DNA from: Alphaproteobacteria bacterium
GTDB lineage: Bacteria > Pseudomonadota > Alphaproteobacteria > Micavibrionales > UBA2020
Length of the DNA stretch: 64,000 bases
Reading direction: 5' to 3'
Assembly (NCBI GenBank): GCA_025934695.1
Contig: JAICWS010000002.1
Coordinates: 620,001 to 684,000 of the forward strand
This document shows positions 45,281 through 60,102 of the stretch, in pieces. The notes under the pieces were generated by a model, which searched no databases, had not been told where the DNA came from, and saw only the letters and a list, made by a program, of their open reading frames with translations. The position numbers and the translations under genes were made by a program. The stretch's first letter is position 1. Each line of letters begins with the position of its first letter.

Positions 45281-45392
45281 CCCCTCTCCCGCGCCTGTCG
45301 CGGGGGAGGGTTAGGGAGAGGGAGTGTCCCGAATTCGACGTTCAGGACATCCCTCTCCCCAACCCTCTCCCAACATGCGTTGGGAGAAGGAG
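45281..45392. repeat. CTCTCCC-type paired repeat that ends in the bgl ribosome binding site
   Basis: Two inverted units, each with a CCCTCTCCC...GGGAGAGGG pattern, occupy the gap between the methyltransferase stop and the GH3 gene. The outer right end reads TGGGAGAAGGAG, whose AAGGAG (45387-45392) is 6 bases upstream of the GTG start of the GH3 gene. The same repeat family occurs at 62254-62382. Confidence 0.75.
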
Positions 45393-45398
45393 CAAGAT

Positions 45399-47606
45399 GT
45401 GAGTGCCATGAAATCCTTTATCGACGACCTGATGAACAAGATGTCGTTGGACGAAAAAATCGGCCAGCTCAACCTGGTCGCGCCGGGCGGCTTCACCAAT
45501 ACGGGGCCTGAAACGACGAAAAACGTCTCTGAAAAAATTCGCGCGGGGCAGGTCGGTGGCATGTTCGGCTTCTGGGGCGTGCAGAACGTGAAACCGTGGC
45601 AGGATATCGCGGTGAAGGAGACGCGTCTTGGCATCCCGCTGATCTTCGGCCTTGACGTCATTCACGGCCACCAGACGGTGTTTCCCATTCCGCTCGCGCT
45701 CTCCTGCACCTGGGATATGGCGCTGATCGAAAAGTCGGCGCGTATCGCGGCGGTTGAAACCGCGGCCGACGGCGTTAACTGGGTTTTTTCGCCGATGGTC
45801 GATATCTGTCGCGACCCGCGCTGGGGCCGCATCGCCGAAGGCGCTGGGGAAGACCCTTACCTGGGCTCGAAAGTCGCGCACGCCATGGTGCACGGCTATC
45901 AGGCGGGCGACCTGTCGAAGCCCGACACGGTCATGGCCTGCGTCAAGCATTTCGCGCTCTATGGCGCGGCGGACGGGGGCCGCGACTATAACACCGTCGA
46001 CATGAGCCGTATCAAGATGTTCGAATATTACCTGCCGCCCTACCGCGCCGCGATCGATGCCGGCGCCGGCAGCATCATGACGGCATTTAACGAAGTCGAC
46101 GGCGTGCCCTGCAGCGGCAACAAGTGGCTGCTGACCGACCTGCTGCGCCATGAATGGGGCTTCGACGGTTTTGTTGTGACAGACTTTACCTCGATCAATG
46201 AGATGTCGGCGCATGGAATGGGCGACCTGCAGACCGTCTCGGCGCTCGCGGCCAATGCCGGCGTCGATATGGACATGGTGGGCGAAGGTTTCGTGCGCAC
46301 GCTGAAATCCTCCATCCAGGAGGGCCGGGTCAAGACCGAGGCCGTCGATGCCGCCTGCCGCCGCATCCTCGAAGCCAAGCAGGCGCTAGGCCTGTTCGAC
46401 GACCCGTTCCGCTATTGCAGCGGCAAGAGCGTCGAAAAAATCCTTTCGCCCGAACACCGCGCCGCCGCGCGCGAGATGGCGGCGAAAAGCTGTGTGCTGC
46501 TCAAGAACGACAGGCAACTGCTGCCGCTGAAAACCTCCGCCACCATCGCGCTGATCGGTCCCTTGGCAAACGACCGCAAGAATATGCCCGGTACTTGGGC
46601 AGTCGCGGGCGACTGGCAGAAGTGCGTCACGCTGCTCGAAGGCATGCAGCCGCGCGCGAAAGTGCTTCACGCCAAGGGCGCCAATATCACGAACAGCAAG
46701 GAATGGGCCGAACGCCTCGCCATTTACGGCAACAACCGCATCGACATCGATGCGCGCGATCCTTCCGACATGATCCGCGAAGCGGTCGAGATCGCATCAA
46801 AGGCCGATGTTATCGTCGCCGCCGTCGGCGAGGCGCAGGAAATGTCGGGCGAGGGCGCGTCGCGCAGCGACATCGGCATTCCGCCCGATCAGCGTCCCTT
46901 GCTGGAGGCGCTAAAAGAAACCGGCAAGCCGCTGGTTCTCGTCGTTTTCGCCGGGCGGCCGCTGACGCTGGAATGGCAGCACGCGAATGCCGACGCCATG
47001 CTGCTGGTCTGGTTCGGCGGCACCGAGGCGGGCAACGGCATCGCGGACGTATTGTTCGGCGAGGTCAATCCTGCCGCGAAACTCACCGCGACTTTCCCGC
47101 GCAATGTCGGGCAGATCCCGATTTACTACAATCACAAGAATACTGGGCGTCCCTATCTCGCTGCCGGCGGCTATGAAGACAAGTTCAAGTCGCGCTATCT
47201 CGATGTCGTGAACGAGCCGCTGTATCCTTTCGGGCACGGGCTGAGCTACACGAGCTTCGAATACGGGCCGGTCAAGCTTGACAAGGCCGAAGTAGAAGGC
47301 GACGGTCGCCTGACCGCGTCGGTGACGATACGGAATACCGGCAAATATGCCGGCGAAGAGATCGTCCAGCTTTACATCACCGATCCCGTCGCCAGCGTGA
47401 CACGCCCGGTGAAAGAGCTGCGCGGCTTTGAAAAGATCATGCTGAAACCGGACGAAAGCCGCGAAGTGTCCTTTGTCATCACGGTCGAGCAGCTGAAGTT
47501 CTTCAACAGCGCGCTCGAACATGTCTGGGAGCCCGGCGAATTCCTCATCCATATCGGCTCAAGTTCGGCAGCGGTGCAATCGGCGAAAGTGGTGTGGAAT
47601 AAGTGA
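45399..47606 (+). CDS. GH3 beta-glucosidase (BglX-like)
   Basis: A 735-residue glycoside hydrolase removing terminal beta-linked glucose. The N-terminal TIM barrel (GIPLIFGLDVIHGH, RDPRWGRIAEGAGEDPYLG, CVKHFALYGAADGGRDYNTVD) contains nucleophile D262 in FVVTDFTS. The alpha/beta sandwich follows and the C-terminal fibronectin III-like domain starts near 640. E. coli BglX is periplasmic, but this protein has no signal peptide and should be cytoplasmic. GTG 45399 is chosen because AAGGAG lies 6 bases upstream; an in-frame ATG is at 45408. It begins a run of glycan genes. Confidence 0.93.
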   Translation: MSAMKSFIDDLMNKMSLDEKIGQLNLVAPGGFTNTGPETTKNVSEKIRAGQVGGMFGFWGVQNVKPWQDIAVKETRLGIPLIFGLDVIHGHQTVFPIPLALSCTWDMALIEKSARIAAVETAADGVNWVFSPMVDICRDPRWGRIAEGAGEDPYLGSKVAHAMVHGYQAGDLSKPDTVMACVKHFALYGAADGGRDYNTVDMSRIKMFEYYLPPYRAAIDAGAGSIMTAFNEVDGVPCSGNKWLLTDLLRHEWGFDGFVVTDFTSINEMSAHGMGDLQTVSALAANAGVDMDMVGEGFVRTLKSSIQEGRVKTEAVDAACRRILEAKQALGLFDDPFRYCSGKSVEKILSPEHRAAAREMAAKSCVLLKNDRQLLPLKTSATIALIGPLANDRKNMPGTWAVAGDWQKCVTLLEGMQPRAKVLHAKGANITNSKEWAERLAIYGNNRIDIDARDPSDMIREAVEIASKADVIVAAVGEAQEMSGEGASRSDIGIPPDQRPLLEALKETGKPLVLVVFAGRPLTLEWQHANADAMLLVWFGGTEAGNGIADVLFGEVNPAAKLTATFPRNVGQIPIYYNHKNTGRPYLAAGGYEDKFKSRYLDVVNEPLYPFGHGLSYTSFEYGPVKLDKAEVEGDGRLTASVTIRNTGKYAGEEIVQLYITDPVASVTRPVKELRGFEKIMLKPDESREVSFVITVEQLKFFNSALEHVWEPGEFLIHIGSSSAAVQSAKVVWNK

Positions 47607-47613
47607 GGTCTCC

Positions 47614-48018
47614 ATGAAAATCTTTATGCTCGCTACACTTCTGCTTCTGGGCACGGTATCTCCCGCGATGGCGGGAAGCAGCGTGGCCGACGGCAAGAAC
47701 GCGCCTGTCAGTCCCAGCGACGCCATGACGATCCAGAAAAATTACGCCGATTACGCGGACCTCATGACCAGAAACATCGACGTCGTGCTGCTCAATGGCA
47801 ATGTCATCCACATCAACGGAATTTATGCGTTTGTGACCGACGATGACGGTAAGCTGGTGAAAGCGCCCGACGGCAATTACCTGCTGCAGGATCATAGTCA
47901 GATGAACGTGATGGGCGGCATGGTGAAGATGGAACTGAGCGACAAAATAGCCGGTGTCACCGTCCATCCGCCGTCCGCGAACCCAACGCCACCCGCTGAC
48001 TCGCCGGCCAGCCAGTAG
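47614..48018 (+). CDS. Small exported hypothetical protein
   Basis: A 134-residue protein with a clear signal peptide (MKIFMLATLLLLGTVSPAMA, cleavage expected after AMA), so it is probably periplasmic. The mature part contains LLNGNVIHINGIYAFVTDDDGKLVKAPDGNYLLQ region, which looks like a small beta-rich domain, and ends in a Pro-rich tail. No family is recognised. GAGG lies 6 bases before the ATG, and the gap to the GH3 stop is 7 bp, so it is likely in that operon. Confidence 0.75.
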   Translation: MKIFMLATLLLLGTVSPAMAGSSVADGKNAPVSPSDAMTIQKNYADYADLMTRNIDVVLLNGNVIHINGIYAFVTDDDGKLVKAPDGNYLLQDHSQMNVMGGMVKMELSDKIAGVTVHPPSANPTPPADSPASQ

Positions 48019-48045
48019 ATTTTCCCTACGGCGTTCACCACCAGC

Positions 48046-48124
48046 GTCATTCCCGCGCAAGCGGGAATCCCTTGGGGTTTTCAGTGCAAGATTTCATCGA
48101 GATCCCCGCTTGCGCGGGAATGAC
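48046..48124. repeat. Paired inverted GCGCAAGC repeat
   Basis: Left unit 48046-48068 and right unit 48102-48124 are inverted copies of the palindrome GTCATTCCCGCGCAAGCGGG. They lie between two genes transcribed in the same direction, 28 bp after the upstream stop. A near-identical pair, with GAAAGC in place of GCAAGC, is at 52990-53073. Confidence 0.85.
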
Positions 48125-48198
48125 ATCATCAAATCAATGGCTTAACAAAAGATTCACCTCTTTTGTTTATCATAATGTCAGGTTTAAAGAGGATATGA

Positions 48199-48891
48199 AT
48201 GACCCGCAACGCCAGCATCATCGAGGACTTCCGCGACAAGGCCCGCGGCTATACGGCGGGCGAGACGATCTTCATGATCGACGGCAGCGAGGAATTCCAC
48301 GACGCGCGCATCAAATGCGTCAGCTGCATCGAGCGCATCAAAGGGCAGATCGGCAGCAAGGTGCAGACCTATCTGTGGGGCAATGACAATGGGAGCGTCA
48401 TGGTGACCCATGGCCTCGACGACGTCAAACGCCTTGGCGATCTCGAAAACCATATGCTGCTGCCGACGCTGGATGAAACCCGGATGATGCTTGAAATCGG
48501 CGTGAATAAGACGCCAGCGCATATTCTCGTCGCCGGCGCGGGCGAGTTCTGGGACGATGACAGGAAACTGGCGCGATGCTTCCGGCAACTGATAGCCGAT
48601 CCCGGCGTCCAGATCGACGTTATCCTCGGCAGCAACGCCGGCACCAAGCTCGAAAAGCTGATCCTCGGCCTCAAGGACGAAAAGGCCATCGCGCGGGAAG
48701 GCGAGCCGCTGCGCCTCACCTGCCTCAAGGACGCCGCTGACGTGAACACCGAGCTGGTCGATGCCATCAACGCCCGCTTGTTCTATGAATCCGAAGCGCC
48801 CGACCGCGCCGCCGCCGCATTCCTGAACGGCACAGCGGGCAAAGTCGCCCCCATGCGCAGGCTCAAGCTGCGGCCGCTGGTGAAGGACTAG
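48199..48891 (+). CDS. Hypothetical protein
   Basis: A 230-residue soluble protein that I do not recognise. It has a CVSC pair near residue 40 (RIKCVSCIERIKGQIG), a segment HILVAGAGEFWDDD that resembles a nucleotide-binding beta-alpha turn, and DVILGSNAGTKLEKL further on. It has no signal peptide or membrane helix. GAGGAT lies about 7 bases before the ATG. It is preceded by a repeat pair and followed by the GH144-like gene 76 bp downstream. Confidence 0.65.
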   Translation: MTRNASIIEDFRDKARGYTAGETIFMIDGSEEFHDARIKCVSCIERIKGQIGSKVQTYLWGNDNGSVMVTHGLDDVKRLGDLENHMLLPTLDETRMMLEIGVNKTPAHILVAGAGEFWDDDRKLARCFRQLIADPGVQIDVILGSNAGTKLEKLILGLKDEKAIAREGEPLRLTCLKDAADVNTELVDAINARLFYESEAPDRAAAAFLNGTAGKVAPMRRLKLRPLVKD

Positions 48892-48967
48892 GGGCGCTTA
48901 TTTTTCAATGTATTCAAGGGTCAAATTCCCCGTGTTCACATTACGGGAAAAATGCTATGCTATTGGA

Positions 48968-50293
48968 ATGTCACGGAAAGATTTCAACGACAAGGCGATC
49001 CGCAAGGATCTGACCGACGATGAGCTGCTCGACCTTGTCCAGCGGCAGACGCTGAAATATTTCTGGGATTTCGCGCATCCCGTCTCGGGCATGGCGCGCG
49101 AGCGCAGCAACGCCAGCAAGGCGGAATGGGGCTATGACCTCGACACCGTCACGACGGGCGGCACGGGTTTTGGCATCATGGCGCTGGTCGCGGGGGCCGA
49201 ACGCGGTTTCATCGCGAAGAAGGACCTGCTCGCGCATCTCGAAAAGATGGTCGATTTCCTCGACAAGGCCGATAAATTCCATGGCGCTTTTCCGCATTTC
49301 CTCAATGGCAATACCGGCAAAGTGGTGCCTTTCTCGAAGTTCGACGATGGCGGCGATCTTGTCGAAACCTCGTTCCTGATGATGGGACTGCTCACCGCGC
49401 GGCAATATTTCGCAGTCGAGCCTGCGGCCAAAGACCTCTGCGACAAGATCAACCGCCTGTGGGAAGGCGTGGAATGGGACTGGTACCGCAAGCCCGGGAC
49501 CGACGATCTCTACTGGCACTGGAGCCCGAACCACGATTTCGCCATGAACCACCGCATCCGCGGCTGGAACGAATGCTTGATTACCCATGTGCTGGCCGCT
49601 TCGTCGCCCACCCACGCGGTCGATGCGGTCCCCTATGAGAAGGGCTGGGCGCGCGGCCTCGATTTCGAAAATGGCGACCGGGTGAGCGGCATCGAGCTGC
49701 CATTGGGGCCCCATAAGGGCGGTCCGCTGTTCTTTTCCCACTATTCTTTTCTAGGCTTGAACCCCAAATTGCTGAAAGACAGGCACGCCGACTATTGGGA
49801 GCAGAACAAGGCCCATACCCTGCTCAACCGCCAGCACTGCATTGATAATCCCAAGGGTTTCAAGGGTTACGGGCCCGATTGCTGGGGCGTAACGGCCTGT
49901 GACAATCCGGATGGCTACGACGCCCATTCCCCGACCAACGACAAAGGCGTGATTGCACCTACTGCGGCCTTGTCATCCTTCCCCTACACCCCCATATATT
50001 CCATGCAGGCTTTACGTCATTTCTACGAGGACCTCGGGGATAAACTCTGGGGAGACTATGGCTTTGCGGACGCGTTCTGCGAAAGCAGGAACTGGACCGC
50101 CAAAAGCTACCTCGCGATCGATCAGGGACCGATCGTGGCGATGATCGAGAACCACCGCTCCGGCCTGCTGTGGGACCTCTTCATGAGCTGTCCCGACGTG
50201 AAACACGGGCTCGACAAGCTCGGCTTTGAAAGCGAAGAGAAAATGCAGCCCGTCCCGAAACCCGCGCAGCCGTCGAAGCCTCCCGCGCCCTGA
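48968..50293 (+). CDS. GH144-like glucanase (glucoamylase family, PF10091)
   Basis: A 441-residue (alpha/alpha)6-barrel enzyme. Diagnostic segments are [93 protein letters not shown] region and [10 protein letters not shown]. The family includes GH144 endo-beta-1,2-glucanases, so a beta-1,2-glucan substrate is plausible but not proven. Relatives are usually exported; this one has no signal peptide from the ATG at 48968. A longer start at 48908 gives no signal peptide either. It is followed 16 bp later by an ABC exporter-like gene. Confidence 0.83.
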
Positions 50294-50309
50294 TCTCAAA
50301 AGAAGACAC

Positions 50310-52064
50310 ATGAAGCAAATTTTCCGCGATGCCTGGAGACTGACCGCGCCGTACTGGCGTTCCGAAGAAAAATGGAAGGCGCTGGGGCTACTCGCGGTGG
50401 TCATCGGGCTCAATCTCGGCGCGGTTTACTTCAACGTTCTTTTCAATGACTGGAACCGAAAGTTCTATGACGCCATCCAGAACTTCGATGCGGCGGGTTT
50501 TTGGCATTTGCTGCTCGTCTTTACGGGTCTGGCGTTCGGTTATATCCTGGTCGCCGTTTACAAAACCTACCTGAACCAGATGTTGCAGATCAAATGGCGG
50601 CGCTGGCTCACCAATTATTATCTGGACACCTGGCTGGGCCGTCAGGCCTATTACCGCCTCCAGGTCGAAGGCAACCCCGCCGACAACCCCGACCAGCGTA
50701 TCAGCGAAGACATCAACAAATTCGTGGACCTGACACTCGGCCTGTCGCTGGGCCTGCTCAGCAACGTCGTCAACTTCTTTTCGTTTCTCACCATCCTGTG
50801 GGGGCTTTCCGGGGCGCTTGATTTTTCGTTTCACGGGACGGCCATCCATATTCCGGGCTATATGCTGTGGGCAGCGCTCGCCTATGCGGTCGTGGGCACA
50901 TGGGTGACGAAATGGATCGGCCGTCCTCTCGTCGGCCTGAATTACCAGCAGCAGCGGTATGAAGCGGATTTCCGCTTCAGCCTGATACGCCTGCGTGAAT
51001 ATGCCGAAAGCGTCGCCTTTTACCGGGGCGAAACGGCCGAGAAAACCAACTTCTCCGGACGCTTCACAAGCGTGGTCGACAATTTCTGGGGCATCATGCG
51101 CCGCCAGAAGAAATTGAACTTCTTTAACTACGGATATTCTCAGATCGCGATCATCTTTCCTTATCTGGTTCTCGCACCCGCCTATTTTGCCAAAAAAGGT
51201 TCCCTGGGCGTGCTGACCCAAACAGCGGATGCTTTTGGCCAGGTCCAGGGATCCTTATCCTTTATCATCGACTCGTACATGGATATCGCGACCTGGCGCG
51301 CGGTCATCGACCGTCTCAGCGGCTTTAACGCCGGCGTCGAACGGGTGAAAGCCGCGGCGGATAGCGAAAGCCTCCAGATCACGGCGGCAACTGGTTCCGC
51401 GATCGCCGCGAGCGGGCTTCATGTCCGGCTGCCGTCCGGCGACGAGCTGCTGAAAGATCTTTCGTTCCATGTCAAGGAAGGCGAAGCCCTTCTTATCCAG
51501 GGACCATCAGGCTCGGGGAAAAGCACGCTTCTGCGCACCATGGCCGGCATCTGGCCCTATGCGCAGGGGCGGCTTTCCCTGCCGGCCAACGCGAATAAGA
51601 TGTTCGTGCCGCAAAAGCCCTATATGCCGCTCGGCACGCTCCGGCAGGCGCTGATCTACCCCGGCACCGCAGCCGTGGATGACGCCGATATCCGGTCGCT
51701 GCTGAAGGTCTGCCAGCTCGGCCATCTCGAAGACCGCCTGGACGAGGTGCAGGTCTGGAATCACATCCTGTCGCTGGGCGAACAGCAGCGGGTGGCGTTT
51801 TTCCGGGCGTTTTTGTCGAGGCAAGACATTGTATTCCTTGATGAAGCCACATCGGCACTTGACGAACCCTCCGAAGCGTATTTTTATGGGCTCTTACGCA
51901 TGAAGCTTCCAAAAGCGGTCATTGTCAGCGTCGGCCATCGCAACACGCTGCACAAATGGCATGACCGCACGCTTGATCTGAGGGAAAAACAGGTATGCAA
52001 CGACACGGCGTCATCGTCAGCCCATCGGGGACACTCGGAGCCACTTTCAATCCTGCCGCAGTAA
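50310..52064 (+). CDS. Fused ABC transporter permease-ATPase (SbmA/YddA-like)
   Basis: A 584-residue half-transporter that should work as a homodimer in the inner membrane. The N-terminal ~330 residues have six membrane segments of the ABC_membrane_2 type (SbmA/BacA, YddA and peroxisomal ABCD relatives; [21 protein letters not shown] region, [13 protein letters not shown]). The ATPase has Walker [12 protein letters not shown], signature [11 protein letters not shown] and Walker [14 protein letters not shown]. Substrates of this family include peptides and acyl-CoA; linkage to glycan enzymes leaves the cargo open. Its last 70 bp overlap the start of the GH130 gene in another frame. Confidence 0.9.
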
Positions 52065-52984
52065 AGCTGGATGACGGGCGCTTTATCCTCCTCGTGCGCT
52101 CGGTGCCGAGCGGCTATACCAAGATCGGCAAGGTCAACCAGTTCGACGATAAATACACCTCGCACCTGAGCCTGTGGGAGTCGAAGAAGCCCGACGGCGG
52201 CTTCACGCTCGTCGATGCCGAAGCCATCAAGCCCGATCAGCCCTACGATAAATTCGGCGTCGAGGACCCGCGCATCACCAAGGTCGGCGACACCTATTAC
52301 ATCTTCTACACCGCACTCGCCAAAGGGCTGGGCCAACCCGACGCCGCGACCGGCATCCGCATTGCCATGGCGAGCACCAAGGATTTCAAAACATTCAAGA
52401 AGCACGGCGTCATTGGCCCCGACCGCACCTCGAAGGCGGGCGCGGTGTTCGAAAGCGGCGGCAAACTCTGGTTCCTCTGGAAGGACGAGCAGGGCATCGA
52501 GCGCACGATGATGACGCCCGCGCCGCAAAATTTCGAAGACGCGAACGAATGGAAGAAGCTCTGGGCCGGGCGCGACATCGGTCCCGACCAGCTCATCGGC
52601 CCGCAGAAGAACGGCTATGAAGACTTCGGCGTCGAACCCGGCGCGCCGCCGATCGAAATCCCCGAGGGGCTGCTGCTGGTCTATTCCTCCATCTCCAAAG
52701 ACATGAAATGGACGATCAGCCTGATGCTGCTCGACAAGGACGATCCGCGCAAAATCATCGCCAAGACCGAAGCGCCTTCGCTGCGGCCCGAGGCCGATTA
52801 TGAGCTGAAAGGCGACGTCAACAACGTCGTCTTCCCCTGCGGCGCGGTGATCGACAACGAAAAACTCTACGTCTACTACGGGGGCGCCGACACCGTCTGC
52901 GCGGTCGGCAGCGAAGACATGGCGACAGTGCGCAAGCTGCTGAAGCCGTTCAAAGACAATCCCGCGCCCAAGCCGCATAAATAA
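51995..52984 (+). CDS. GH130-family glycoside phosphorylase/hydrolase
   Basis: A 329-residue five-bladed beta-propeller enzyme. [22 protein letters not shown] and the C-terminal [23 protein letters not shown] are typical of GH130, which holds beta-mannoside phosphorylases and beta-1,2-mannosidases. The Asp in GVEDPR corresponds to the conserved catalytic acid. No signal peptide is present, which favours a cytoplasmic phosphorylase. The ATG at 51995 lies inside the ABC gene (70-bp overlap), so expression is coupled to it. Confidence 0.88.
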
Positions 52985-52989
52985 TTTAT

Positions 52990-53073
52990 CCGTCATTCCC
53001 GCGAAAGCGGGAATCTCGTGTAGCAAGTCCCGCTCAGATTTCGACGGGATCCCCGCTTTCGCGGGGATGACGG
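52990..53073. repeat. Paired inverted GCGAAAGC repeat between convergent genes
   Basis: Left unit 52990-53018 and right unit 53045-53073 are inverted copies of the GTCATTCCCGCGAAAGCGGG palindrome. They fill the gap between the convergent GH130 gene and the minus-strand peptide-MNIO unit. Confidence 0.85.
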
Positions 53074-53077
53074 AGCG

Positions 53078-53299
53078 CTAGGACGGCTTCCCCCTCGTAC
53101 CCCATTTCCTCACCAGCTCCGCCGCCACGTCCAGCATGTGTGGCTCCATGGCTTCGACATAAGCGTGAAATTCCTTCAGCTTTTCGTCCGCCAGCAATTC
53201 GGCGCGGACTTGCTCGTGCGTCTTGCCGGCGGCCAGCAGCTCCAGCAGCCGGTCCTGGAAGCGGGCGACGGGCGCGGGCTCAGGCGGCGGCTTTGGCAT
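53078..53299 (-). CDS. Small protein linked to the MNIO enzyme
   Basis: A 73-residue soluble, mostly helical protein: a Pro-rich start (MPKPPPEPAP) and then two amphipathic helical stretches (FQDRLLELLAAGKTHEQVRAEL; MLDVAAELVRKWG). I do not recognise a named family. It overlaps the MNIO gene by 20 bp and is the last gene of the unit. Known MNIO enzymes often work with a partner protein (MbnC, TglI, ChrI); this one is much smaller than those, so it may be a reduced partner, a second substrate or an unrelated helper. Confidence 0.7.
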   Translation of the reverse strand: MPKPPPEPAPVARFQDRLLELLAAGKTHEQVRAELLADEKLKEFHAYVEAMEPHMLDVAAELVRKWGTRGKPS

Positions 53300-54137
53300 G
53301 CGTCACCATCGATGTCAGGCGCAGGTAATCGTCGCGGAAACCTTGGGCCTCGTCCTCGTCCGTGAATGACCAGGGCAGCTTTTCAAGAATAACGAAGCGC
53401 GTGTTCGGGCACAGCGCCATGACTTTGGGAAGCGCGTCGAAGACGGCATCCGGCACGCGCCCATCGTGCGTGTCGCGGCGGACGCGGAGATCGCCGTGCT
53501 CCGACCAGGAGCCGCCCGCGACATGGATTTCCAGCACGCGGTCCAGCGGATAGGTCTTGACGATATCGAGGACCGGCACGCCGAAATTTTCCGACTGGCA
53601 GTAGATATTATGCAGGTCGAGCAGCAGGTAGCCATCGACCTCACGCAGCAGCTCATCGATAAAGCGGCCTTGGTCCGCGACATCTTTCTTTGAAAAGGCA
53701 AGCGCGAGATTCTCGATGCCGACCGGCGCATCGACGACGGCGGAAAGATCCCGCATCGCCCGTTTGCCGGTCTTCAGCGCGGCATCGCAAAGAGGCACCG
53801 GCAAGGGCGCGCCTTCGACGAATTCCCACCCGGCGGAAAAGCCGAAGTGGACCGAAATGCCGGCATATTTGCGCGCGCTCGTTTCACGGTCCAGGTTTTC
53901 CAGCCATTGGCTGCGTAAGCCCGCGGCATTTTCGGACAGCAGCGGATATTCGACGCCATGGCCGATGAGCAGGCCTTTTTCCGCGAAGCCGTCCAGCAGG
54001 CCTTCCGTTTCGGTGACAACATCATCCTGCGCGAAGGAATCGACAGACCATTCCGCCGCCTCAACCGACGATAACAGCGGGCGCGCGGCGGAAAGATATC
54101 GTTCGTCGCCGAACAGCGACAGGCCGCAACGCGGCAT
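53280..54137 (-). CDS. DUF692 / MNIO-family oxidative enzyme
   Basis: A 285-residue TIM-barrel protein of the multinuclear non-heme iron-dependent oxidative enzyme family (PF05114), whose members MbnB, TglH and ChrH modify cysteines or other residues of short peptides. Candidate iron ligands fit the family order: H60 (IGHG), H97 (SVHF), E142 (GIENL), D174 with H176 and N177 (DLHN), H205 (EIHVAGGS), D222 and H224 (DTHDG). Its ATG directly abuts the stop of a 39-residue peptide gene, and its 3' end overlaps a 73-residue gene. The pairing with a Cys-containing peptide suggests peptide modification; substrate and product are unknown. Confidence 0.87.
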   Translation of the reverse strand: MPRCGLSLFGDERYLSAARPLLSSVEAAEWSVDSFAQDDVVTETEGLLDGFAEKGLLIGHGVEYPLLSENAAGLRSQWLENLDRETSARKYAGISVHFGFSAGWEFVEGAPLPVPLCDAALKTGKRAMRDLSAVVDAPVGIENLALAFSKKDVADQGRFIDELLREVDGYLLLDLHNIYCQSENFGVPVLDIVKTYPLDRVLEIHVAGGSWSEHGDLRVRRDTHDGRVPDAVFDALPKVMALCPNTRFVILEKLPWSFTDEDEAQGFRDDYLRLTSMVTHAKAAA

Positions 54138-54257
54138 TTAGCCCCTGCCGCAGGCCGGGCAGAAACCGGGCGGACGCGGACGGCGCGGCGGTTGCGCGGG
54201 CGGCTGCTTCGGGGGTTCGGGTTGTTTCGGCTGTTTCGGGGGCGTCGGTTCGGTCAT
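54138..54257 (-). CDS. Candidate precursor peptide for the MNIO enzyme
   Basis: A 39-residue open frame, too short for usual gene finding, read from ATG 54255-54257 to TAA 54138-54140. It has 15 prolines, many in Lys-Gln-Pro and Glu-Pro-Pro repeats, and ends in PGFCPACGRG, with cysteines at 33 and 36. AAGGAG lies about 10 bases before the ATG. Its stop is immediately followed by the ATG of the MNIO gene with no spacer. Size, position and C-terminal cysteines are what a ribosomal peptide precursor would show. Alternatives are a tiny zinc-knuckle protein or a chance frame. Confidence 0.65.
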   Translation of the reverse strand: MTEPTPPKQPKQPEPPKQPPAQPPRRPRPPGFCPACGRG

Positions 54258-54345
54258 GGGCGTATGGCTCCTTGCTTGAAATGACGAATAAGAATAAGGA
54301 GCGCAGTTCGCCATCAATCGCGGCGCGAGTCAAGGGCCTGATTTT

Positions 54346-54915
54346 TTAACGTTTGTACCGAAAACAGCTGACGATATGGTCGTTGATCAAACCGGTCGCC
54401 TGCATATGGGCATACATGATGACCGAGCCCACGAAGGTCATGCCCCTTTTTTTCAGGTCTTTCGACAAAGCATCCGATTCCGCCGAGCGCGGCGGGATGT
54501 CCTTCAGTGTCTTGGGTGAATTCTTTATCGGCTTGCCGCCGACGAAGCCCCAGATATAGGCATCGAAACTGCCGAATTCCTTCTGGATTTCGAGGAAGGC
54601 GATGGCGTTTTTGCGCGTCGCGAAAACCTTCAGCCGGTTGCGGATAATGGCGGGGTCAAGCAGGCGCTTTTCGAGATCGGCGTCCGTGAGTTTTGCCACC
54701 TTCTTCGGGTCGAAGTTGCAGAAGGCCTTGCGGTAGCCTTCGCGGCGTTTCAGGATCGTCTCCCAGCTCAATCCCGCCTGCGCGCCTTCGAGGATCAGGA
54801 ACTCGAAATGCTTGCGGTCGTCATGGACGGGCACGCCCCATTCCGTGTCGTGATATTCCTCGTAGAAGGGTTTGCCGGTGCCGACCCAGCCGCAGCGTAT
54901 CTTTTCTTTGCTCAT
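54346..54915 (-). CDS. tag: DNA-3-methyladenine glycosylase I
   Basis: It removes 3-methyladenine from alkylated DNA. The 189-residue protein starts with the zinc-site region IRCGWVGTGKPFYEEYHDTEWGVPVHDD and has SWETILKRREGYRKAF, NRLKVFATRKNAIAF and the C-terminal MYAHMQATGLINDHIVSCFRY with the second zinc-ligand group. The protein is full length. Its start overlaps the asparaginase stop by 4 bp. Confidence 0.95.
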   Translation of the reverse strand: MSKEKIRCGWVGTGKPFYEEYHDTEWGVPVHDDRKHFEFLILEGAQAGLSWETILKRREGYRKAFCNFDPKKVAKLTDADLEKRLLDPAIIRNRLKVFATRKNAIAFLEIQKEFGSFDAYIWGFVGGKPIKNSPKTLKDIPPRSAESDALSKDLKKRGMTFVGSVIMYAHMQATGLINDHIVSCFRYKR

Positions 54916-55898
54916 GTCTTTCCCATCCTGATCTGTCCCACGTCTAGCCCGCGCCAGTTCTTCAGCACCGGGAAGGCGATGTTCCGCACCGCTCCAAGCA
55001 CCTCGGGCAAGGCAAGCCCATGACGTTCCAGCAAATGGACGAGCGCCGCCTGCGACGCGCGGCCCGCGCCGTCTTCCGCTTTCAAAGCGATCACCGCGTC
55101 TTTTTCAGGTATGACCGCGACATGCACGGCCTCGCCGCCGCCCTTGGCCATGATCCTGCCCTTTGCGGCTTGCATCAGGACCGTGTCGATGCGGCCCGTG
55201 CCGCCGACCAGTTCCGGGTGCTGCGTCATCGCGGCGAAGATGCGCGCGCAGGCGGCCTTGCGTTTCGCGTCAAATGCCGCGGGGTTCATCAGGCGGGCGA
55301 GGCCGCGGCCCAGATCTTCCAGCGGCATGGCCGGATTGGGTGCGGAGCAGCCGTCGATGCCGCAGCCCGCGGGGGTCAGGGCCTGCCCGCACATCTCCGA
55401 AATGGCGGCGAGGATTTTCTGCTGCACCGGGTGAAGCGGGTTGACGTAGTCCTTCGGCGAGACCTTTAAAAACTTCGCCAGCGTCAGCATGCCCGTATGC
55501 TTGCCCGAGCAGTTGTTGCAAAGGATGGTGGCGGGCGCGCAGGGGGCGGCGTAAGGCGCATGCGCCCCGCATTCCAGGTCGGCATCGCTGAAGCTTAAGC
55601 GCCTCAGCCAGCCGGCGACCGTCGTGGTGTGAAATTCCTCCCCGCTGTGGGAGGCGCAGGCGAGCGCCAGTTCCGCCGTCGACATGCCCGCTTCGTCCGC
55701 CGCCCCGCTTTCGACCAGGGCGAGGGACTGCAGCGGCTTCAGCGAGGAGCGCGGGAAGGTAAGGCGGCGCGGATTACCGTAAGCCGCCGTAATTTCGCCG
55801 CGCCCGTTCATAACGAGGGCATGCACGGCATGGCTGCTCTCGACGGCGGGGCCACGCGTGATTTCAACGGTTAAGGGGCTGTTCGCCGCCATTTGCAT
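54912..55898 (-). CDS. L-asparaginase, Rhizobium etli type (PF06089)
   Basis: A 328-residue amidohydrolase converting asparagine to aspartate and ammonia, of the class unrelated to E. coli AnsA/AnsB. Key segments are FPRSSLKPLQSLALV, ACASHSGEEFH, the NCSGKHTGMLTLAK loop with catalytic Ser-Lys, and GCGIDGCSAPNPAMPL. The cytoplasmic form has no signal peptide. An ATG at 55890-55892 is an alternative start; the Shine-Dalgarno AAGGAAA fits either. It forms a two-gene unit with tag. Confidence 0.9.
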   Translation of the reverse strand: MQMAANSPLTVEITRGPAVESSHAVHALVMNGRGEITAAYGNPRRLTFPRSSLKPLQSLALVESGAADEAGMSTAELALACASHSGEEFHTTTVAGWLRRLSFSDADLECGAHAPYAAPCAPATILCNNCSGKHTGMLTLAKFLKVSPKDYVNPLHPVQQKILAAISEMCGQALTPAGCGIDGCSAPNPAMPLEDLGRGLARLMNPAAFDAKRKAACARIFAAMTQHPELVGGTGRIDTVLMQAAKGRIMAKGGGEAVHVAVIPEKDAVIALKAEDGAGRASQAALVHLLERHGLALPEVLGAVRNIAFPVLKNWRGLDVGQIRMGKT

Positions 55899-56005
55899 AT
55901 TTCCTTATTCAATCTCCCGTTCGCCGATCGCGGGAATCATGCTTATATATCTATCGGCCCGCCCAAGAAGGCCACTCCGTTTTGTCGCGTCTACGGTCGA
56001 GAGCA

Positions 56006-57445
56006 ATGCCCCTGCCTGTCAAATACCTGAACTTCTATCGAAATATCAAGGGCAGGTGGGATTTGATGCTGTTTCTGGGCAAATGGGACGCTGATTATCG
56101 CAAAAGCCTGATCATCACCGCGCTCGCCTTCGGGCTGCTTTTTTACGCGCTGGCCTCTTTTCACACCGTCTGGGACATCCTGGCGACCGCCGCGGCCCTC
56201 GGCATTATCCTCGCCCAGTTCGGCGGCGATATGTCGATTCTACCCGCCGACTACCGGCCTTCGCAGGGCAGGGTGAGATATTCGGTGCAGGCAAGCACGC
56301 ATATTGCCGGCGAAGAGCAGAGCTTCCTCATGTCGAATGTCTTCCCCTGCGCGGCGGAAGAACCTTACGGCTTTCGCAACCCCATCCTCGGCAAGGGCCT
56401 GTGCCGCGAAAGCCCGCTGGTCAGCGACCGCACCGACGACGCCCTGATGCTGCGCCCGCGCCTCGCCTTCCACGAAGACACGGCGCCGATGAATTTCATC
56501 CGCTCGCGCCATCAATTGAGATATATCGCAATCCGCGTGGGCAACAAGCTTCAGCACACGACAAACGGCGTGAAACTGTCGATGCACGACACGGCGGATG
56601 CGATCGCGGCGGAACGGCCGATCATCCTGCGCAAATCCTTCTATTTCGACGCTCTGATGACGGAAGAAGCATTCCGCAGCCGCATCCTGCGCAACAACAT
56701 CCAGGGCGACAAGGAAGTCTATGCCGACCTGACCACCAACTTTCCCATCGTCGAGGAAACCATCGACGGCCGCGCCGGCGTGCGCTTCGCACCCGATATG
56801 TACAAGACGGTGCCAGGCCAGATTGGCGTCACGACGCTGCTGATCACCGAGAACCGCCGCGTGGCCATGCTGTTCCAGGGTTCAACCAAGGCCGTGGGCT
56901 CGCATACCGTCACCCTCGGCGGTTCGGGCTCGATGAATTATTCCGATATCGAGATCGCGAGAGAGTCGGGCGATCTGCGTACGGCCATCACCCGCGCCAT
57001 GGCGCGCGAACTGTGCGAGGAAACGGGGCTCGAAAAGCACCTCGACGAGGTCAGCCGCAACACGATGCTCACCGGCTTCTTCCGCTGGATCGACCGCTGC
57101 GGCAAGCCGGAATTCGTCGGCATCACGCGGGCCGAGGATGTGCCCTTCAGCCGCGACAAATCCATCGACGGCGACGAGGTCGTCAAGTACGAGGAAATTC
57201 CCGTGCTTATCAATACACTCGCGGACTTTCAAAAAGTCATCATCTGGCTGCGCGACCGCCGCCTGAATATGTCGCTCTCGTCGCTGATGGCGCTGCACCG
57301 CATGACCGTCATCGCCACCTACGCGCGGCCCGACGCGACGCCGGAGCAGAAGAAGGTTTACCAGTCCGTCTCCGAATTCCTTTTTGGGTCGCTCGCCTAT
57401 CTCGACAAAACGGTGGCGGCGCCGTATCAGCTGGGGCCGGGATGA
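56006..57445 (+). CDS. Membrane protein with Nudix-like segment
   Basis: A 479-residue protein with two hydrophobic helices near the N-terminus (about 34-75, SLIITALAFGLLFYALASF and ILATAAALGIILAQF) and a large cytoplasmic domain. Near residue 325 the sequence ITRAMARELCEETGLE matches the REUxEExGU half of a Nudix box, but the first Gly and Glu of the consensus are not in register, so hydrolase activity is uncertain. VTLGGSGSMNYSDIEIA and FFRWIDRCGKPEFVGIT are further landmarks. ATG 56006 is preferred; a TTG 24 bases earlier is possible. It overlaps the next gene by 4 bp. Confidence 0.7.
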   Translation: MPLPVKYLNFYRNIKGRWDLMLFLGKWDADYRKSLIITALAFGLLFYALASFHTVWDILATAAALGIILAQFGGDMSILPADYRPSQGRVRYSVQASTHIAGEEQSFLMSNVFPCAAEEPYGFRNPILGKGLCRESPLVSDRTDDALMLRPRLAFHEDTAPMNFIRSRHQLRYIAIRVGNKLQHTTNGVKLSMHDTADAIAAERPIILRKSFYFDALMTEEAFRSRILRNNIQGDKEVYADLTTNFPIVEETIDGRAGVRFAPDMYKTVPGQIGVTTLLITENRRVAMLFQGSTKAVGSHTVTLGGSGSMNYSDIEIARESGDLRTAITRAMARELCEETGLEKHLDEVSRNTMLTGFFRWIDRCGKPEFVGITRAEDVPFSRDKSIDGDEVVKYEEIPVLINTLADFQKVIIWLRDRRLNMSLSSLMALHRMTVIATYARPDATPEQKKVYQSVSEFLFGSLAYLDKTVAAPYQLGPG

Positions 57446-57930
57446 CCGAACCATCTGAACAAGCCGAGCGCCGGCCGAAGCTGAACAACAGCCACTTCCA
57501 CATGTGGCGCTGCATCATCGCGATCATCATGTCCGACGGCGTCTATCATCCGTCGGAGCGCAAGTTCGTCGACAAGGCCTTCGCCGCTCTCGACCAGGCC
57601 TATAACGTCACGAACGAGCAGAAGATGGCGTTCTTCGACGACCTCAAAAATCCCAAGGATGTCGACAAGCTTTTGACGCAGGTCGTCGACCCGCTGCACC
57701 GCGCGCTCATTCCCTGGTTCGGCCAGTTCATCACCATGATCGACGGGCGCAAGGACCCGCGGGAAAAAGCCTTCGTCCATTCGCTGCAGGTCAAAGTGCG
57801 CACTGCCGACACCGACGGCGTCGCCGCCGAGCTCGAGGTCGCCATCACCGAGCGCAAGGCGCAAAGCACGCGGTTTTTCAACCTCATCGATTTTCTATTG
57901 GAGCGCCTCGGTATTGGGCCGTTAGGGTAG
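57442..57930 (+). CDS. TerB-like small protein
   Basis: A 162-residue soluble helical protein. The segment IIAIIMSDGVYHPSERKFVDKAFAAL resembles the first helices of TerB-like domains, in which an acidic residue after a Met-Ser-Asp-Gly turn binds metal. The similarity is limited, so the assignment is tentative. ATG 57442 overlaps the stop of the Nudix-like membrane protein gene (ATGA), so the two are translated together and may form one membrane-associated system. Confidence 0.6.
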   Translation: MTEPSEQAERRPKLNNSHFHMWRCIIAIIMSDGVYHPSERKFVDKAFAALDQAYNVTNEQKMAFFDDLKNPKDVDKLLTQVVDPLHRALIPWFGQFITMIDGRKDPREKAFVHSLQVKVRTADTDGVAAELEVAITERKAQSTRFFNLIDFLLERLGIGPLG

Positions 57931-57987
57931 AATCTCCTCCCCCAAAGGAGAGGAGAAGGGGCGGCGATGCTGGCATTGAAGTATTTA

Positions 57988-60102
57988 TTAAATATGCCGC
58001 TTCATCTGCGGCGCGTGGCCTTGTGCGCTCGACGATTTGAACGTCACGCCCGGTGATTTTTCGATGCATTCCACGGCGGTGTGCCCGTTCTCGCGTCGGA
58101 ATTCGAGCGAGATGGTTGAATCGCCGATTTTCAGGCCGCTGATGGAGAGCGCGTCAAGCCAGTCGGGCAGTTGCGGGTTGTCGACCGATATGGTCTTGGT
58201 GCGCCCGTCGATCTTGATGCCCAGCATTGCCTGCATCATCAGGCTTTCCGACGCGCTCGCCCAGGCCTGTGGGTTGCAGGCGACGGGATAAAGCGCGGGC
58301 GGCTTGCCGGCTTCTTTCTGCAGTCCGCCGAACAATTCGGGCAGGCGCATGCGCGGGAAATGGGCGGCCGCGTTGAACAGCGCGGTCAGCAGTTGTGCCG
58401 CCTTGTCTTCGAAACCGTAGCGGGCGAAACCGGCGGCCGCGATGGCCGTGTCATGCACCCATACTGTCCCGTTATGATAACCTTCGGGCGGCTTCACGGG
58501 TTCATAGCGCTTTTCTTTCGACGACAGGGTGCGGATGCCCCAGCCGGTGAACATATCGGGCGCCATCAGCTTGTCGGCGACCTTGGCCGCGCGTTCGGGC
58601 GGCACGATGCCCGAGAACAGCAGGTGCCCGGGGTTCGAGGAATTCACGAGGCAGGGCTTCTTCGCGCCGTCGAGCGCCAGCGCATAGGTGCCAAGGCTGT
58701 CGGACCAGAAGGCCTTGTCGAAACGCTCGGCCAGATCTTCCGCTTCCTTCGCGAGGCGCGTCGAGACATCGGCTTTGCCAAGCGCCGCCGCGATCTGCGA
58801 GGCCGTGCGCTTGGCGTCATAGACATAGCCCTGCACTTCGCAAAGCGCGATGGAGCCGGGCGCCAGGTTTCCGTCGGCATGCGAGATGCTGTCGTTCGAA
58901 TCCTTCCAGCCCTGGTTGCCAAGGCCGCTCTCCTCGCCCCGGTAATATTCGACGAAACCGTCGCCGTCGCGGTCGCCGTATTTATCGATCCATTCCAGCG
59001 CCGCCTCGATATTCGGCCAGATTTTGCGCAGGAAAGCCTCGTCGCCGGTGCGCTCGAAATAGGCGCCGGCGAGGCTGATGAACAGGGGCGTCGCATCCGC
59101 CGTGCCGTAATAAGGCGCATGCGGCACTTCCTTGGCGCCCGCCATCTCGCCCTGGCGGATTTCATGCATGATCTTGCCGGGCTCGCTGTCATGGAATTTG
59201 CTGGTCTCGGTCGCCTGGTGATCGGAAAGATAGGTCAGCACGCCTTTGGCGAGATCCGGGTCCTGCCACAGCATCTGGAAAGCGGTAATGATGCCGTCGC
59301 GCCCGAAGGGCGTCGAGTACCAGGGAATGCCGGCGCAAGGGTAGGGGCCGGTGGGGAATTCCGTCGTCAGCAGCGCGATATCGGCGGCGTTCTGGCGCAG
59401 CCAGTTGTCGAAAGCGGCATTGGAGGAGGTGATGGCGGGCCGCCGCGCGATCTGCTCCTCGATGAAATCCATCGCGCCGGCTTTGGCTTGTTTGAAGGCG
59501 GCTTCGGAGACCGGCGCGTCGCCATTATCTTTGCCGAGACGCGCGTAGATGGTTTTGGTTTCGCCGGGCGCCAGAGCCAGATTGAAATGAGCGGTGCCGG
59601 GATCGGCGCCAAACGCCGCAGAAAAAGATACTTTCGCGCGACGAACGACATTGTCCGCGCCGTTATGGATGAAGGTCGTGCCGTCTTTATCCGCTTTCGG
59701 CGTTTCGGCTGTGCCTTTCTTCTTGCGCTCCCAGCCACGCACCTCGAACAGGTCCTTGAAATCGGCTTCATAGTTGTAATCGAGCTTCGCCGCCGCGGCC
59801 GCCGAACCGTTATTCTTCACCTCGATCTTCTCATAGAGGTTGTCGTTGAACAGCACGAAACTGCGCGTAATGCCGAGGTCGCCCGCTTTCAGCTTCGCGG
59901 TGAAGACGACATTGTCGTCATCGACATCGGCGTACTCGCTGTGCGGTTCCTGTCCGTTGACGGTCAGTATGGCGCGGGAAACCAGGCGCATGTCCTTGCA
60001 GATCAGCCCGTCGGCGGTATTGTGCTCTTTCTCGTTCAGTCCGCGGATATTGCCCTTCTCATCCAGCATGGCGAAACTGTCATTGTGCTTGAGGACGAAC
60101 AT
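57988..60102 (-). CDS. Glycogen debranching enzyme (amylo-alpha-1,6-glucosidase type)
   Basis: A 704-residue protein. The N-terminal ~210 residues form the GDE N-terminal beta-sandwich (FVLKHNDSFAMLDEKGNI; DGLICKDMRLVSR). The catalytic (alpha/alpha)6 barrel shows GIPWYSTPFGRDGIITAFQML, YYGTADATPLFISLAGAYF, EVQGYVYDAKR and HNGTVWVHDTAIAAAGFARYG. This fits bacterial amylo-alpha-1,6-glucosidase-like proteins. The gene starts directly after the stop of the upstream lipoprotein gene (TAAATG), so the two are coupled. It may act with the GH13 and GlgE-like enzymes near 23-27 kb. Confidence 0.9.
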   Translation of the reverse strand: MFVLKHNDSFAMLDEKGNIRGLNEKEHNTADGLICKDMRLVSRAILTVNGQEPHSEYADVDDDNVVFTAKLKAGDLGITRSFVLFNDNLYEKIEVKNNGSAAAAAKLDYNYEADFKDLFEVRGWERKKKGTAETPKADKDGTTFIHNGADNVVRRAKVSFSAAFGADPGTAHFNLALAPGETKTIYARLGKDNGDAPVSEAAFKQAKAGAMDFIEEQIARRPAITSSNAAFDNWLRQNAADIALLTTEFPTGPYPCAGIPWYSTPFGRDGIITAFQMLWQDPDLAKGVLTYLSDHQATETSKFHDSEPGKIMHEIRQGEMAGAKEVPHAPYYGTADATPLFISLAGAYFERTGDEAFLRKIWPNIEAALEWIDKYGDRDGDGFVEYYRGEESGLGNQGWKDSNDSISHADGNLAPGSIALCEVQGYVYDAKRTASQIAAALGKADVSTRLAKEAEDLAERFDKAFWSDSLGTYALALDGAKKPCLVNSSNPGHLLFSGIVPPERAAKVADKLMAPDMFTGWGIRTLSSKEKRYEPVKPPEGYHNGTVWVHDTAIAAAGFARYGFEDKAAQLLTALFNAAAHFPRMRLPELFGGLQKEAGKPPALYPVACNPQAWASASESLMMQAMLGIKIDGRTKTISVDNPQLPDWLDALSISGLKIGDSTISLEFRRENGHTAVECIEKSPGVTFKSSSAQGHAPQMKRHI

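Follow-up and report, generated by a model that had tools for sequence, protein, structure and literature searches.

MNIO enzymes of the ChrH/DybH subfamily are known from the ChrA/ChrH/ChrI system of Chryseobacterium, the DybA/DybH system of Dyadobacter and the MelA1/MelH/MelHc system of Candidatus Melainabacteria; the reaction, the sufficiency of the substrate motif and the MelH/MelHc complex have been described (PMC12636315, PMC10214503). In the Chryseobacterium and Dyadobacter systems the precursor gene lies directly upstream of the MNIO gene, the precursor ends in CPxCGxG and the enzyme is fused to its C-terminal domain. Cyanobacterial relatives encode this domain on its own, as MelHc; it binds MelH in a stable complex and modification depends on it (PMC12636315). 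ChrA, DybA and MelA1 carry SPI or SPII signals, and a leader is unnecessary, as DybH modifies GFP bearing only CPACGMG at its end and tolerates changes inside the motif (PMC12636315). There is no mention of Proteobacteria or Pseudomonadota in the text of that paper (PMC12636315).

The window, the whole stretch of 64,000 nucleotides analysed here, carries on its minus strand one tight operon of three frames. A preliminary description had delimited them to the exact base, though without naming the strand: a 39-residue, proline-rich peptide gene abutting the ATG of an MNIO gene, which in turn overlaps a 73-residue gene by 20 bp. The features of the unit, and one neighbour discussed below, are as follows.

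54268..54273, minus strand: AAGGAG, a ribosome-binding-like site read directly from the sequence, 10 nt upstream of the peptide ATG
54257..54138, minus strand: 39-aa precursor gene with a ChrA/DybA-type tail and homologues in a second species that differ mainly at third codon positions
54141..54161, minus strand: CPACGRG codons (residues 33-39), predicted modification site, matching the family motif CPxCGxG (PMC12636315, PMC10214503)
54137..53280, minus strand: MNIO gene, 285 aa, ChrH/DybH/MelH subfamily, TIM barrel core
53299..53078, minus strand: 73-aa protein gene, separately encoded, MelHc-like ChrH C-terminal helical domain (HMM and four-helix model)
50226-52064, opposite strand to the unit: BacA/SbmA-like ABC transporter with fused ATPase (PF06472/PF05992/PF00005)

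The ATG of the MNIO gene follows immediately on the TAA stop of the peptide gene, and no sigma-70-like promoter was found. The same gene order, with homologous peptides, is present in Alphaproteobacteria bacterium FW300_bin.31 (G001; loci L002 and L058), a second species of the genus. The earlier reading of a precursor-MNIO-helper unit is correct. The G001 MNIO is 66% identical to that of the window, the third protein there has 76 aa, and the genome holds two paralogous peptides ending in HCPGCGMG and SCPACGRG. A palindromic repeat was also seen in the window at 52990-53080, between the GH130 and 73-aa genes (CCGCGAAAGCGGG and its complement at 52999 and 53052), and a similar element lies at the corresponding place of L002 (2581-2660).

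The MNIO matched PF05114 in Pfam (93.5 bits) and, in NCBIfam, the ChrH model NF050165 (277.7 bits), the next best model being BufB (78.1). The cut-off of NF050165 is 600, which suits Chryseobacterium-like enzymes: a Chryseobacterium enzyme scored 702, while a Dyadobacter relative (400) and split relatives from Melainabacteria (338) and Aphanothece (363) fall below it, as the window enzyme does. A 60-enzyme tree placed the window MNIO within the ChrH clade, and a branch with 100% support divides it from BufB-like MNIOs belonging to its order. Together with the enzymes of G001 and G033, a further genome of the order, it formed an alphaproteobacterial subclade with 99% support, in which G033 is a long branch and its placement less sure. 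It shares about 39-47% identity with family members outside the genus. The genome has another MNIO outside the window (L022, G000:C2:926760-927260), which groups with those MNIOs of the order that are not of ChrH type.

The predicted structure (pLDDT 91.6) had TglH and MbnB as its best PDB matches. The TglH ligands H71, H107, E151, D184 and N187 correspond to H60, H97, E142, D174 and N177 of the window enzyme, and H216, D229, H231 and E258 to H205, D222, H224 and E252, the first two histidines being mapped via a 3bww alignment. Among 27 family members, eight of these nine iron ligands were invariant and H97 nearly so. MNIOs of the MbnB, TglH and BufB types have the TIM-barrel fold and iron ligands in common with the window enzyme, but use other partners (MbnC, TglI, DUF2063-RRE) and other substrate motifs. 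No BufB/HvfB/MbnB/TglH-type enzyme with a DUF2063, MbnC or TglI partner was found in the unit, as a bufferin, oxazolin, methanobactin or pearlin system would have. By its sequence, the MNIO is a member of the ChrH/DybH subfamily already known.

The very small third protein had been regarded as a misfit with known MNIO systems, as had the absence of DUF2063 and DoxX genes. The latter is not odd because ChrH-type systems do not include such partners, and the former can be explained by the way in which the enzyme is encoded. Among 80 related loci, 70 have an MNIO frame that runs well past the barrel into a fused C-terminal part. The other ten include L103, which is truncated by a contig end and was counted as fused; eight of the remaining nine then have a separate frame of 66-89 aa, as in the window. 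A profile HMM made only from the 70 fused ChrH C-termini, run on 879 window frames, gave the 73-aa protein 32.1 bits (E 4.7e-9) and the next frame 4.7 bits. Stand-alone counterparts adjoin split MNIOs in Melainabacteria, Cyanobacteria and Planctomycetota. The 73-aa protein, of 8.2 kDa, was modelled as a four-helix bundle (pLDDT 87), which agrees with the helical bundle of about 7.8 kDa described for ChrH enzymes. A Foldseek search of this model against the PDB gave no significant match (best E 1.3), and a Pfam hit to DUF4148 (E 0.27 over 13 residues) was set aside as noise. Homology to the fused C-termini thus identifies the 73-aa protein as the ChrH C-terminal helical domain encoded separately.

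The peptide, MTEPTPPKQPKQPEPPKQPPAQPPRRPRPPGFCPACGRG, ends in CPACGRG. A CPxCGxG-stop pattern occurs only twice in the 4.1-Mb genome, with no match for a reversed-pattern control; the frame is therefore not a chance occurrence. The other match is a 21-residue stretch lacking a precursor-like frame, and no further substrate was found in the genome. Compared with the closer G001 homologue, the peptide gene has 5, 4 and 16 differences at codon positions 1, 2 and 3 (dN 0.14, dS 0.76, rough values from 39 codons), a substitution pattern as in coding sequence, which indicates that the frame is under coding selection. The preliminary description had named loss of the peptide or its cysteines, or non-coding substitutions, as evidence that would count against it, and neither was seen here: the differences fall mostly at third positions and the tail is kept. 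It had also suggested looking for conserved short frames ending in CPxCG beside homologous MNIOs; a CPxCGxG-ending frame lies on the MNIO strand in 72 of 81 related loci.

Conservation in the peptide lies in the CxxC tail, which is therefore the likely modified core, as had been proposed; the proline-rich part, earlier taken for a leader or spacer, is a variable N-terminal region. The window peptide keeps both cysteines, Pro34, Gly37 and Gly39 of ChrH-type systems and has Arg at the sixth motif position in place of Met; among 74 precursor frames, 54 end in CPACGMG and four in CPACGRG. The available part of the family-paper text reports no experiment on a CPACGRG tail. The peptides gave no significant match to the NCBI precursor model NF050125 (E 0.42, 0.12 and 0.24). 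Since the C-terminal motif alone suffices for DybH, the proline-rich part would be free to vary.

It is in this part that the precursor is unusual. The window and G001 peptides contain 36-38% proline and have a net charge of +5, and no hydrophobic segment (signal peptide, lipobox or membrane helix) was found in them by hydropathy. The lack of a signal peptide, already noted from the sequence, was confirmed: the maximum 15-residue Kyte-Doolittle mean is -0.95 for the window peptide, and -1.02 and -1.09 for the two G001 peptides with their MTDE starts. Longer in-frame upstream starts (59-63 aa) added no signal peptide, the longest reaching 0.19. All 72 precursor frames outside the genus, that of G033 included, have a hydrophobic stretch (maximum mean at least 1.34), with frame starts assigned mechanically, so that individual values may shift. 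An export signal is variable rather than defining for precursors of the ChrH/DybH subfamily, the enzyme having no need of it, and it is absent from the window peptide. From these comparisons, the signal-less, cationic, proline-rich precursor is an unusual variant, seen in both genomes of the genus that have the operon.

The closest comparison is with MelA1/MelH/MelHc, which has in common with the window unit a ChrH-subfamily MNIO, a separate C-terminal helical protein and a CPxCGxG substrate tail; MelA1, however, is a 34-kDa secreted protein, whereas the window substrate is a 39-aa peptide without a signal (PMC12636315). The ChrA/ChrH/ChrI and DybA/DybH systems share the MNIO subfamily, the C-terminal motif and the upstream precursor gene, but their enzymes are fused. 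The G033 operon (L003) has the same gene order, with a precursor ending in CPTCGLG, a split MNIO and a 70-aa C-terminal-domain protein, but its precursor contains a membrane helix without being rich in proline, and enzyme identity is 42-44%.

Gene order, the homology of the enzyme and of its split domain, the iron ligands, the motif and coding selection on the peptide are established here. The unit is very likely a minimal split (MelH/MelHc-type) ChrH/DybH RiPP operon that makes a macrocycle and a hydantoin on Cys33 and Cys36, and its product is very probably a small, ring-containing modified peptide formed by the chemistry of Chryseobacterium and cyanobacteria. We infer this reaction, the complex and the lack of methylation from the homologues. 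The MNIO core and the 73-aa domain would form one enzyme, which would recognise the C-terminal CPACGRG of the peptide. Cys36 would be bound at the iron centre, where O2 would be used for a four-electron oxidation. The Cys33 sulfur would be joined to the former Cys36 beta-carbon, closing the macrocycle, and the Cys36 carbonyl would be moved between the amide nitrogens of Gly37 and Arg38, giving the hydantoin. The mass should shift by -4.03 Da, from 4252.17 to 4248.14 Da monoisotopic, or from 4121.13 to 4117.10 without Met1.

An S-methylated product of chryseobasin type (+10 Da), with SAM as methyl donor, would involve the same family and motif, and ChrH itself gives +10 Da while myxobacterial ArlH gives a mixture (PMC10214503, PMC12636315). 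This outcome is unlikely, though it is the strongest of the alternatives. A shift of -4 Da is what the split MelH/MelHc gives, as do DybH, ChsH and HymH, the homologues tested from Bacteroidota apart from ChrH, and in the tree the window enzyme stands apart from Chryseobacterium. Given these -4 Da results, the product is probably unmethylated. The chr operon also has the extra genes ChrI, ChrE and ChrP, none of which adjoin the window unit; with an NF050165 score below 600 and no ChrI (DUF1772), ChrE or ChrP among the neighbours, the unit does not qualify as a chryseobasin operon proper.

The unit is flanked on one side by GH130, the BacA/SbmA-like ABC transporter, a glycoamylase-like protein and GH3, and on the other by DNA-3-methyladenine glycosylase and L-asparaginase II; GH130 and ABC genes flank it in G001 as well. 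Glycan-related genes were noted across 45324-60102 (GH3, glycoamylase-like PF10091, GH130 and glycogen-debranching-like PF14742/PF22422), and two long frames (48199-48891 and 55982-57445) had no Pfam match at E 0.001. The BacA/SbmA-like family imports proline-rich peptides in other bacteria, and the RPRPP-type stretch of the window peptide may resemble antimicrobial peptides of the proline-rich kind, or else a rigid spacer as in TonB. A branch of the ChrH type that is cytoplasmic or exported by a non-Sec route, in which a cationic proline-rich peptide with a macrocycle-hydantoin cap is perhaps moved by the ABC transporter about 2 kb away, is conceivable but doubtful. A functional link with the ABC gene was rejected as unsupported, as the gene is also present in the unit-less genomes G002, G005 and G008 and lies on the other strand.

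The preliminary description had proposed a new class of modified peptide. On this account, the proline-rich precursor and the Arg-for-Met tail would mark a changed chemistry (e.g. thiooxazole or oxazolone-thioamide), and the precursor architecture, but only that, does differ. In the clade of its enzyme, in its split C-terminal domain and in both cysteines, Pro34, Gly37 and Gly39, the unit is of ChrH type, and DybH accepts changes within its motif (PMC12636315). A new reaction is therefore quite improbable, and a new MNIO class was rejected: the ChrH-type clade, whose substrates end in CPxCGxG, the tail itself, the helical bundle and the iron ligands are all present. ChrH, listed by the preliminary description among the known enzymes, is itself the family that matches. 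A decaying remnant whose peptide is not a substrate would suit the patchy distribution (3/142 genomes of the order) but is the least credible reading, given a peptide dN/dS of about 0.2, an intact enzyme with all iron ligands, stop/start coupling kept in two species and two peptide paralogues retained in G001.

The enzyme was present in 3/142 genomes of the order, 1/385 of a class sample and 1/398 of a phylum sample; from these counts, the system is rare in the phylum. No relatives were confirmed in viral contigs. In Planctomycetota (L089, L115 and L137), precursors of 264-275 aa were observed with ends YCPGCGMG, YCPPCGMG or HCPGCGMG and hydrophobic N-terminal parts, and large-protein substrates are therefore not confined to Cyanobacteria.

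To summarise, the split ChrH-type system is now extended to Alphaproteobacteria, in a very small complete set of a 39-aa peptide, a 285-aa core and a 73-aa domain. As this case shows, what looks like a very small helper beside an MNIO can turn out to be a detached domain of the enzyme. The signal-less soluble substrate fits the published finding that no more than the C-terminal motif is needed to direct the enzyme, and it separates the question of the role of the modification from that of secretion.
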